A stretch of DNA of 64,000 nt from a gamma proteobacterium HTCC5015 (GTDB lineage: Bacteria > Pseudomonadota > Gammaproteobacteria > HTCC5015): assembly GCA_000155715.1 (NCBI GenBank), contig DS990598.1, positions 379,705 to 443,704 of the forward strand, read 5' to 3'. The notes beneath the pieces are model-generated. The model saw only the letters and a list, made by a program, of their open reading frames with translations. It was not told the DNA's origin and made no database searches. The translations under genes were made by a program, and so were the position numbers. The first letter of the stretch is position 1. Each line of letters begins with the position of its first letter. This document shows, piece after piece, positions 11,011 through 29,175 of the stretch.

Positions 11011-11030
11011 AAACATAGAGGACAATCGTC

Positions 11031-11576
11031 ATCGCAGCACCGAGAAGAAGACCGCCGCAGCAAAAAGATCAAAATCGCATTAACGATCAAATTCGTATCC
11101 CCGAGGTACGACTTATTGGCGCAGACGGTGAGCAGGTGGGCATTGTGTCCACTGATGAAGCGAAAAAGATTGCCGAGGAGGCCGCTCTCGATTTAGTCGA
11201 GATCGTGCCCAACGCGAAGCCTCCGGTTTGCCGGGTGATGGATTACGGCAAATACAAATTTGAGCAAAGCAAAAAGGCCAATAACGCCAAGAAAAACCAG
11301 AAGCAAATCAAGGTTAAAGAGGTTAAGTTCCGCCCCGGTACGGACGATGGCGACTACAACGTCAAACTCAACAACCTAAAGCGCTTTTTGGAAAAGGGTG
11401 ATAAGGCCAAAGTGACATTGCGTTTTCGCGGTCGCGAGATCACCCACCACGAGTTGGGACGCGATTTGTTGAAGCGTATCGAGGGCGACCTTGAGGAGTA
11501 TGCCTCTGTCGAGCAATTTCCAAAAATGGAAGGCCGCCAGATGATTATGATCCTCGCGCCCTTGAAAAAGAAATAA
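11031..11576 (+). CDS. infC: Translation initiation factor IF-3, ATC start
   Basis: IF-3 binds the 30S subunit, keeps it free of 50S and checks the start codon. No ATG or GTG gives a full-length protein: the first GTG (11136) would remove about 35 residues of the N-domain. The reading frame runs back to ATC at 11031, with AGAGG at 11017-11021 nine bases ahead, giving 181 residues, close to E. coli's 180. Conserved marks are [19 protein letters not shown] near 26-44 and the [14 protein letters not shown] and [10 protein letters not shown] segments. Rare start codons (ATT in E. coli) let IF-3 repress its own translation, so the same autoregulation is inferred. ATC 11025 is the alternative but sits too close to the AGAGG. 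Confidence 0.92.
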
Positions 11577-18699: not shown

Positions 18700-19795
18700 A
18701 TGGAAATCAACCCGCTCCTTAATGCGATTAAAGATCTCACAGAGCGCAGCGACGCGCTAAGGGGGTATCTTTGACTACGAGCACAAGAGTGAGCGACTAG
18801 AGGAAGTTGAGCGCGAGCTTGAAGTCCCCGATGTTTGGAACGACCCCGATCGCGCGCAGGCGCTGGGGCAAGAGCGAGCCAAGCTCGAGCTCGTGGTGCG
18901 CGGTTTAGACCGTATCACCAGTGGTTTGGGCGATGCGGGTGACCTGATAGAAATGGCCAAGGAAGAGGGCGATGAAGAGACGTTAGCGGCCGTCGAAGAC
19001 GATATTGCCGAGTTGACCGACGCGGTTGAGAACTTGGAGTTTCGTCGCATGTTTTCGGGCGAGATGGACGAGAAAAATGCCTATCTCGATATTCAAGCGG
19101 GCTCGGGCGGCACCGAAGCTCAAGATTGGGCCAATATGCTGTTGCGCATGTATTTGCGCTGGTGTGATCAACACGGCTTTAAAAACGAGATTGTCGAGCT
19201 CTCTGAGGGCGATGTGGCAGGCATAAAATCAGCCACCATCCATATTCAGGGTGACTATGCGTTTGGTTGGTTGCGCACAGAGACGGGCGTACACCGCCTC
19301 GTACGCAAATCGCCGTTCGACTCGGGCGGCCGTCGCCACACCTCGTTTGCCTCGGTGTTTTTATCCCCAGAAGTCGACGACAGCTTTGACATTGATATTA
19401 ACCCCGCCGATTTGCGCGTTGACACCTACCGCTCCAGCGGCGCTGGTGGCCAGCACGTGAATACGACGGATTCGGCGGTGCGCATCACCCACGCGCCGAG
19501 CGGTGTGGTGGTGTCTTGCCAAAATCAGCGCAGCCAACACGCCAACCGCGACTTTGCGATGAAACAGCTCAAAGCCAAACTGTGGGAGCTGGAAATGCAA
19601 AAGCGCAATGCGGTTAAGCAAGAGGCTGAGGACAATAAGGCCGATATCGGCTGGGGCAGCCAAATTCGCTCCTATGTATTGGATGCCTCGCGCATCAAAG
19701 ACCTGCGCACCGGCGTAGAAACCGGCAACACGCAAGCCGTACTCGACGGCAGTTTAGATCCATTCATCGAAGCCAGTTTGAAGTCTGGCCTATAG
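18700..19795 (+). CDS. prfB: Peptide chain release factor 2, programmed +1 frameshift
   Basis: RF2 ends translation at UGA and UAA. The gene is in two frames: ATG 18700 through codon 24, then TGA at 18772-18774, then the main frame from GAC at 18773 to 19795, giving about 364 residues. The shift site is the classic one: AGGGGGTAT then CTT TGA C, with the Shine-Dalgarno-like AGGGGG just upstream and C after the stop. Low RF2 lets ribosomes slip on CTT into +1. The main frame has the GGQ catalytic motif in [20 protein letters not shown] near residue 250 and the SPF stop-recognition motif ([12 protein letters not shown]). Confidence 0.96.
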
Positions 19796-25239: not shown

Positions 25240-25683
25240 TTATAGGCGGATTTGTCGGAAATTGGGGTCGGGTTTTGAGGCGTTCCATATCTCTTGAAAT
25301 TGTTGCCCCAGCATTTTCGCCAAGTTGCCGTGGGCACACTCGGCCAAGCCATCATAGCGATCGGCTTGAGAGCGGTAGATGGCGGCGCGCTGATCGAATA
25401 GGGCAAAGCTTTCGTTAAAGCTGCGAAAATCGTCGCTGATAATGCGCACTTCGATATAGCTGCTGAGTCGCTGCGCTAGGCGGTGTACTGCATGGTGTTG
25501 GCGAATGGCGTCGACGCTATCGTGTATTAAAAATCGAATGTCGCTGTGACGGCCGGCGGTGGCGAGCTCAAACAGCGGTTTTTCAAAGCCTTCGTGGTCA
25601 AACAGTTGGCGGTCGAGGTCGCGGCCGATAAACCAGAATTGGCGCCGAGTCTGTCCGAGCAGGTGATCCATCACAGCGGACAC
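25240..25683 (-). pseudogene. DUF7931-like segment, split from upstream GNAT gene
   Basis: The 147 codons from GTG 25683 encode a domain with QTRRQFWFIGRDLDRQLFDH near the start and IRFLIHDSVDAIRQHHAVHRLAQRLSS in the middle, which I recall as the DUF7931 domain often joined to the C-terminus of a GNAT acetyltransferase. Here it is in the same frame as the GNAT gene upstream, separated by TGA GTC TAG at 25753-25761 and 23 sense codons that still read like the linker and domain start (PQRFDLTTASQVSAVMDHLL). No good ribosome-binding site precedes GTG 25683. It may be a broken fusion gene or a real stand-alone gene with a weak start. The domain name is from memory. Confidence 0.55.
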
Positions 25684-25758
25684 TTGGCTGGCGGTTGTGA
25701 GATCAAATCGTTGAGGTGTACCTAATCTGGGCGGCTTGGAGTGTTTCAGCGTCTAGAC

Positions 25759-26190
25759 TCATAAATCGAGATACATTTTTTGATGGGGGATATCGACTTC
25801 CAAAAATGTGTCGCCCTCGGCGGTAAAGCCAAAACCACGATAAAAATGGCAGGCGTGGCACTGGGCGTGTATGTCTATGCGTGATAAGCCGCGCTCCCTA
25901 GCGGCCTCTAATAAAGCGTGAAGTAGGGCCGTGCCAATGCCGCGTTGACGGTAGGGCTTGAGCACGGCCATGCGCCCGATGTGGCTGTCGCGGCTCAGTC
26001 GGCCCGTGGCGACGGCCTGTCCATCGATGACGACGAGGGCGTGTACGGCAAAATCGTCGAGTGGGTCCCACTCCTCGTGTTCGGGGACGCCTTGCTCTTC
26101 GATAAACACCTCGCGGCGAACGGACTCGGCGAGGGGCTTGACGCGGCTCCAGTCGAGCAGTTGTACATCAAAGGCGGTGGCTTCAGTCAT
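25759..26190 (-). CDS. GNAT family N-acetyltransferase
   Basis: About 143 residues, an acetyl-CoA-dependent acyltransferase of the GNAT fold. MAVLKPYRQRGIGTALLHALLEAARERG contains the acetyl-CoA-binding Q/RxxGxG/A motif, and HAQCHACHFYRGFGFTAEGDTFLEVDIPHQKM is the C-terminal family pattern of the ElaA/YjcF-like branch. ATG 26190 overlaps the roxA stop by 8 bases, so they are translationally coupled. The stop TGA at 25759-25761 is followed in frame by TAG one codon later and then by a DUF7931-like segment (see that entry). The substrate is unknown. Confidence 0.85.
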   Translation of the reverse strand: MTEATAFDVQLLDWSRVKPLAESVRREVFIEEQGVPEHEEWDPLDDFAVHALVVIDGQAVATGRLSRDSHIGRMAVLKPYRQRGIGTALLHALLEAARERGLSRIDIHAQCHACHFYRGFGFTAEGDTFLEVDIPHQKMYLDL

Positions 26191-27406
26191 TGTCATCCTC
26201 CGCCTCTTCATGGCCGAGCTCATCCTGCCACAGCCAAAAACCGTGTTGGTAGCCTTTTGCGAGCCAAGCGAGGAGTTCGGCGTCGGCAATAAAGGGCTTT
26301 AAATCCGTGGTGTTGGCGTCAAGTTGCCTTAAAGCGCACAAGTCGGGGAGTAGCGGGCTGTCGAGGTAGTGCTCTTGGCCGTTGATAAATGCCCAGTAGC
26401 CACCGCGCTCGGAACGGGTGAAATTTAAGCGCACAAAGGGGTTTAACTGTAAGCAGCGACCCGATTTTAGCTCGCTGGCGATATCGATGGCATCGACGGG
26501 CTCGTCCTGGGCGATGGCGGGAAATTCACACGCTTGCTGGCTGACGGCGCTGCCGAGCCAGCGCTGCAAGGCCTCGTCGTCTAGCGTGAGTAGGTTTTGC
26601 AATTGTTCGCGCACGCGATGAAGACTGGCGCTGCTCAGTTCGGCGGGATTGCTTTGTCGTGGTAGATCACCGTCGTGGTAGCGCTGGCTCTCGTCCAGAT
26701 CGGCACAGGCGGTATCGACTAAATCAAGCGCTAAGCTGGCCCAGCTGGGGGCGCGAAAGCCGATGGACCAAGTCATGCAGTCGTCGTCTTCGGCGACGCC
26801 GTAGTGAGCGATGCCGGGGGGTAGATAGAGCATATCTCCGGGCGCCAGCAACCACTCCTGTGTGGGCTGAAACTGCTCGAGCAACTTGAGCTCCAGACCT
26901 TCAATGATGGGCGCTTCGCTGCGCTGCTCTTCAATCTGCCAGCGTCGCTGCCCCGCAGTTTGTAGAAGAAAAACATCGTACTCATCTGTGTGTTTGCCTA
27001 CCGAACCGCCACGAGGGGCGTAGCTCACCATGAGATCGTCGATGCGCCAGTCGGGAATAAAGCGAAAGGGCGCTAGATAGGTAGCAAAGTCGGGCAGATG
27101 CTTTTCGATATCTGAAACCAACAGGCTCCAATGGCTATCGGGGAGCTGGCTAAAGCGGCTCTCGGCAAAGGGGCCGTGCTCGACACGCCACTGGTTGTCG
27201 CGATGACTGCCGAGAATTAAGCGCGAGTTGATGCCTTCTTCAAGGGCGAGGCCCGCAAGTTCGTCAGGCGAGAGGGGGTTGCCCCCCTTTTCAGCGAACT
27301 CGGGGAACGCCCCGCGAATGAGCAGGGGCTTTTTTTGCCAGTAGTCCCGTAAAAACTCTTCCGCAGTCAGTCCGTTTAAATGCGTTTGAGGCTGGCTGAA
27401 ATCCAT
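26183..27406 (-). CDS. roxA: JmjC-type ribosomal oxygenase (L16 arginine hydroxylase-like)
   Basis: A 407-residue cupin/JmjC Fe(II)- and 2-oxoglutarate-dependent oxygenase like E. coli RoxA (YcfD), which hydroxylates Arg81 of ribosomal protein L16. N-terminal LNGLTAEEFLRDYWQKKPLLIRGAFP is the family opening; the iron-binding HxD is in GKHTDEYDVFLLQ near residue 130, and the distal His is in PPGIAHYGVAEDD near 195. A winged-helix-like C-terminal part ends the protein. It begins directly after the purB stop (no gap), as part of purB-roxA-GNAT. Confidence 0.9.
   Translation of the reverse strand: MDFSQPQTHLNGLTAEEFLRDYWQKKPLLIRGAFPEFAEKGGNPLSPDELAGLALEEGINSRLILGSHRDNQWRVEHGPFAESRFSQLPDSHWSLLVSDIEKHLPDFATYLAPFRFIPDWRIDDLMVSYAPRGGSVGKHTDEYDVFLLQTAGQRRWQIEEQRSEAPIIEGLELKLLEQFQPTQEWLLAPGDMLYLPPGIAHYGVAEDDDCMTWSIGFRAPSWASLALDLVDTACADLDESQRYHDGDLPRQSNPAELSSASLHRVREQLQNLLTLDDEALQRWLGSAVSQQACEFPAIAQDEPVDAIDIASELKSGRCLQLNPFVRLNFTRSERGGYWAFINGQEHYLDSPLLPDLCALRQLDANTTDLKPFIADAELLAWLAKGYQHGFWLWQDELGHEEAEDDND

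Positions 27407-29175
<1,769 letters not shown>

Follow-up and report, generated by a model that had tools for sequence, protein, structure and literature searches.

A GNAT–DUF7931 gene junction in gamma proteobacterium HTCC5015 and a probable frame shift in its DUF7931 gene

The GNAT and DUF7931 genes and their neighbours

We examined the junction between two genes on the minus strand of the window, which is the whole 64,000-nucleotide stretch of DNA that was analysed. The first gene (25759-26190) runs from ATG to TGA and encodes a GNAT acetyltransferase of 143 amino acids, with both of its profile matches above the Pfam cut-offs (Acetyltransf_10: E = 9.1e-17, 61.7 bits, cut-off 23.6; Acetyltransf_1: E = 3.2e-16, 60.1 bits, cut-off 20.7). 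Its frame, 26190-25759, closes with TGA (25761-25759), which is followed by GTC and then by TAG (25755-25753). Past the TAG this frame continues open over 25752-25240, giving 170 codons without a stop, and residues 21-167 of this stretch match DUF7931 (PF25559: 116.7 bits, cut-off 27, E = 9.2e-34) over profile positions 2-148 of 149. The initial annotation had described two stops one codon apart in a frame which carries both domains; the letters are as it described and both domains are real. As TGA and TAG lie between them, the window does not hold a GNAT-DUF7931 fusion in one open frame. From 25752 to a GTG at 25683-25681 the DUF7931 frame is without ATG, GTG or TTG, and this GTG, its first standard start codon, falls at residue 24, with the domain beginning a few residues before it. 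No purine-rich ribosome site was seen by eye upstream of it. A promoter and terminator scan gave results at chance level only.

The genes upstream are packed as tightly as the GNAT/DUF7931 junction. A cupin/JmjC gene which is RoxA-like (26183-27406, minus strand; JmjC_2: E = 5.1e-37, ROXA-like_wH: E = 3.9e-07) shares 8 bases with the start of the GNAT gene, and purB, encoding adenylosuccinate lyase (27407-28774, minus strand; NF006764: E = 4.1e-233), abuts the cupin gene. This gene order is common to relatives: among the 126 loci described below, 56 have a purB relative upstream, and 37, the window being one of them, have a cupin relative there.

DUF7931 loci in related genomes

PF25559 matched 124 of the 273 genomes which were drawn from the class, and the DUF7931 protein of the window had matches in 23 of 55 genomes, one of them its own. 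We gathered 134 loci, of which 126 remained after the removal of 8 repeats, the window being counted in. GNAT and DUF7931 share one open frame, as a true fusion, at 13 of these 126 loci; a separate GNAT gene lies upstream on the same strand at 37, including the window; and no GNAT was found at 76 in the upstream stretch available, which was usually about 1.4 kb and less at contig ends. Three of the 37 loci have doubtful GNAT neighbours, one with a weak match (L058) and two with the GNAT gene far upstream (L081 and L111). Locus L111 (genome G133, contig C179, 5300-7773) contains two tandem DUF7931 frames downstream of its GNAT gene.

Judged by eye, 20 of the 36 other loci with a separate GNAT have a candidate in-frame DUF7931 start at most 15 bases from the GNAT stop, and 4 of the 36 have an ATGA junction (L020, L048, L093 and L097). 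A split arrangement in which the second gene has its start at the junction, which the initial annotation had set against its own reading, is thus common in relatives, but the nearest of these is only 36% identical to the window's DUF7931 protein. A start codon in the DUF7931 frame ahead of the domain is present in 122 of the 123 loci which could be scored (11 of the 122 being fused frames; 3 of the 126 loci were not scorable), and the window is alone in being without one.

The order to which the genome belongs was represented by only 4 genomes. No unshifted near-identical gene was found, and no close relative was confirmed by protein pattern in the genome contigs or viral contigs scanned, while a search with a typed consensus gave 2 loci. 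Of 36 well-conserved columns, the window protein departs from the consensus at 12 (one because of sequence trimming) and the 40 others at 0-13, which is not decisive as to relaxed constraint. A search for DUF7931 among the papers available gave no match.

The overlapping ATG and the place of the probable frame change

The initial annotation had reported that there was no start codon by the break. This proved to be incorrect: an ATG at 25762-25760 overlaps the GNAT stop at 25761-25759, forming ATGA, and is offset by one base from the DUF7931 frame. The frame which it opens (25703-25762, minus strand) has 19 codons and then a TGA at 25705-25703, and the ATG is the probable true start of the DUF7931 gene. 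No clear ribosome site was seen before it by eye. It should be noted that an ATG over a TGA stop requires only a preceding A, so the overlap alone is weak evidence and is not rare by chance.

We compared the codon use of the two frames at the junction, with training on the 277 open frames of at least 200 amino acids found on 443,704 bases of the contig. For codons 2-13 of the ATG frame the score is 6.36 bits, a value which was reached by 38.8% of 3852 in-frame windows of 12 codons and by only 0.4% of 7704 out-of-frame windows of that length. The nine codons of the DUF7931 frame at 25752-25726 score -2.17 bits. The TAG is what results when codons 3-4 of the ATG frame (CTA GAC) are read out of frame. 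Because codon use in the ATG frame is gene-like, the two stops are probably an out-of-frame reading of the first codons of gene two.

These results bear on the idea that a GNAT-DUF7931 fusion was recently cut by two stop mutations. The fused loci among the relatives make this a reasonable proposal, and in the window both domains do share one frame. However, it requires two stops within three codons, it has to treat as coincidences both the ATGA overlap and the fact that codons in the ATG frame are used as in genes, and the codons directly after the TAG have the negative score given above; we regard it as very unlikely. The initial annotation was correct that a gene is broken here insofar as DUF7931 appears to be frame-shifted, but not in seeing a fusion cut by stops. 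It had also offered read-through of the UGA, with which ribosomes would pass both UGA and UAG to make a fusion protein. The first stop is indeed a UGA and the frame is open beyond the second, but two different stops one codon apart would both have to be passed and there is no stable RNA structure at the junction (z-score +1.07), so that read-through seems to us extremely improbable.

The place of the frame change was narrowed down from three features. In the DUF7931 frame, sequence resembling that of relatives is found only from about 25725 onward. An LG dipeptide at 25725-25720 in this frame is about where relatives carry one, LG being 12 residues ahead of the domain-model start in 61 of 123 loci and 11 ahead in the window, a departure from the usual place which counts against a shift here. 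The coding signal of the DUF7931 frame starts at about 25707. Taken together, the codon use upstream, the LG and the signal from 25707 place a net +1 frame change probably between 25726 and 25706 on the minus strand. A rare AGG codon, which makes up 27 of the 15605 codons in the window training set, is found at the probable junction. Against an N-terminal profile made from 98 relatives, the sequence scored 149.7 bits when given the ATG-frame leader, 149.2 when given the in-frame one and 148.5 when given none; the profile cannot separate the leaders, as 20 shuffled leaders gave 148.0-149.5 bits.

We consider it likely that this is an ordinary two-gene junction in a purB-cupin-GNAT-DUF7931 run, in which the DUF7931 gene carries a net +1 shift at about 25726-25706. 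As judged from the anatomy of the junction, the unshifted form would have given GNAT and then DUF7931 from one message, with ribosomes ending GNAT at the TGA and restarting at once at the overlapping ATG. In the present sequence the same restart would yield a peptide of 19 residues and then meet a stop. As the ATG frame stops after 19 codons, production of the full DUF7931 protein probably fails, or is weak and depends on an internal start. Both the in-frame join to GNAT and the TGA-GTC-TAG pair would be by-products of the shift; about one frame shift in three would be expected to place gene two in the GNAT frame. A single frame shift behind an ATGA overlap can thus mimic a fused gene cut by tandem stops. 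A two-gene form had been among the options of the initial annotation and is the best supported of them, although the start expected is ATG 25762 rather than GTG 25683, and the shift had been missed.

Coupling of genes at overlapping stop and start codons, by termination-reinitiation, has been described (PMC6728339). Like the pairs described there, the window has a gene-one stop which overlaps the ATG of gene two, within a putatively coupled gene run; unlike them, gene two leaves the frame of its start after about 13-19 codons, so that this start is not in frame with the DUF7931 product. Frame shifts which are not shared between prokaryotic genomes and which were confirmed by BLASTp and Pfam have been described as likely sequencing errors or pseudogene indels (PMC3711429). 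The window resembles these "singleton" cases in having its shift in a conserved gene and in one genome only. It differs from those described in that, with the shift placed immediately ahead of the Pfam domain, the two sides are bridged by codon use and gene layout and not by a Pfam match.

DUF7931 might instead work from an internal start, such as GTG 25683, GTG 25674, ATG 25671 or the non-standard CTG 25749, its N-terminal tail having been lost or replaced. The 170 codons are free of stops and the frame keeps its 116.7-bit match to the family profile, and infC in the window likewise lacks a standard start at the point where coding sets in. The tail may also be dispensable, since residues 1-20 have very low confidence in our structure model of the protein (made with 3 sequences; pLDDT 55.4, low confidence). 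However, no ribosome site was seen before any of these codons, a start at GTG 25683 would cut into the opening turns of the first helix predicted (residues 21-32), and the gene-like codon use ahead of the break belongs to the ATG frame. We therefore think an internal start unlikely.

Other apparent frame shifts on the contig and the DUF7931 fold

Two further genes on the contig (C30) appear to be shifted. The first is hisD, at about 254.7-256.0 kb (L155:1204-2512), which is split by +1 over two overlapping or abutting frames. Its pieces match positions 1-250 and 242-393 of the TIGR00069 profile and are the sole hisD matches in the genome. The second is a gene without a name at about 229.8-231.0 kb (L153, shift at ~230.6 kb), which is apparently +1 shifted relative to a gene of genome G001, with 33% and 39% identity on the two sides of the shift. 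This comparison drew on 1,596,896 bases of G001 and extended over 157,605 bases of the contig; an ambiguous tblastn pair at 208 kb was left out of the shift count. The shifts in DUF7931, hisD and the 230.6 kb gene are all of the same sign (+1), and no shared sequence was seen at the three junctions.

The hisD split may be an assembly error or a real break; the data suggest base-level errors in the assembly, with real indels as the alternative. Since hisD, which lies on this contig, shows an apparent +1 split too, an assembly error or a recent indel is an economical cause of the DUF7931 shift, and probably the actual one. The DUF7931 case matters little by itself, but it warns against counting either DUF7931 or hisD as lost or recoded in this genome before the reads have been checked.

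We also scanned for coding signal ahead of the first start codon. Within the window this flagged prfB and infC, which indicates that the scan is able to detect such cases, as well as many short or antisense stretches. The prfB gene (18700-19795, plus strand), with its programmed +1 frame-shift site at about 18750-18780, served as a control. The infC gene (11019-11576, plus strand) shows no ATG, GTG or TTG at the onset of its coding signal, and infC is known for its non-standard start. DUF7931 itself was not flagged because its signal starts late. Run over the contig, the scan raised 9 flags of the "no start" type and 10 of the "pair" type. Four of the former were inspected: at 34.9 kb an ordinary ATG stands nearby, 255.5 kb is hisD, and 69.1 and 89.3 kb are ambiguous; further flags on the contig include 241.9, 276.1, 341.8, 45.0, 295, 346 and 434.8 kb.

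The programmed +1 shift of prfB (RF2; PMC12421855) resembles the DUF7931 shift in being a net +1 change near the 5′ end of a gene, and it differs in having a site to which nothing at the DUF7931 junction is comparable and in that the window's shift is not common to relatives. Programmed frameshifting could in principle link the ATG frame to the DUF7931 frame, for which the AGG codon and the three apparent shifts of one sign might be cited. However, the shift is not conserved, with in-frame starts at all other scorable loci, and the junction has neither a prfB-like site, nor stable RNA structure, nor a sequence which it shares with the other two junctions. We judge programmed frameshifting to be highly improbable. 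The same holds for a recoding specific to this lineage, in which restart at the ATG and a +1 step near the AGG would make DUF7931, with hisD and the 230.6 kb gene as further cases in a lineage which makes use of +1 shifts or tolerates them. Neither read-through nor recoding has positive support.

The sequence TCTAGA occurs in the window at 25752-25757, at a distance of some 26-50 bases from the zone of the DUF7931 shift, and it is also found near the hisD shift (L155, ~2047). As a shared cause of the shifts it was rejected: on the 443,704 bases it occurs 43 times, 35 of them within open frames of at least 200 codons, that of hisD included, and the 230.6 kb gene has no copy within 2 kb. Its nearness to the DUF7931 and hisD shifts is probably a coincidence.

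The fold of DUF7931 was also compared with known structures, using the low-confidence model described above. Foldseek gave no match at E ≤ 0.001, with TrmBL2, an archaeal TrmB-like protein, ranked top. Against phospholipase D folds, VIA-align gave for this low-confidence model a best Z of 10.1, to Zucchini (rmsd 3.0 over 123 residues). The PLDc_2 profile matched 10 of 41 DUF7931 members at E up to 1 (best 3.4e-4), the window protein not being among them. HxK(x)4D is the catalytic motif of phospholipase D, and it was found nowhere in the 41 aligned members (alignment A1). The last D of the motif is nevertheless kept in all 41, as an invariant column, with N seven residues before it in 24 and A five before in 28, and we infer that this column corresponds to the catalytic site of the phospholipase D fold. 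DUF7931 (25240-25722, minus strand) may have a phospholipase D fold in which the catalytic motif has been lost, the D being kept and N-x-A standing most often at the two other motif positions.
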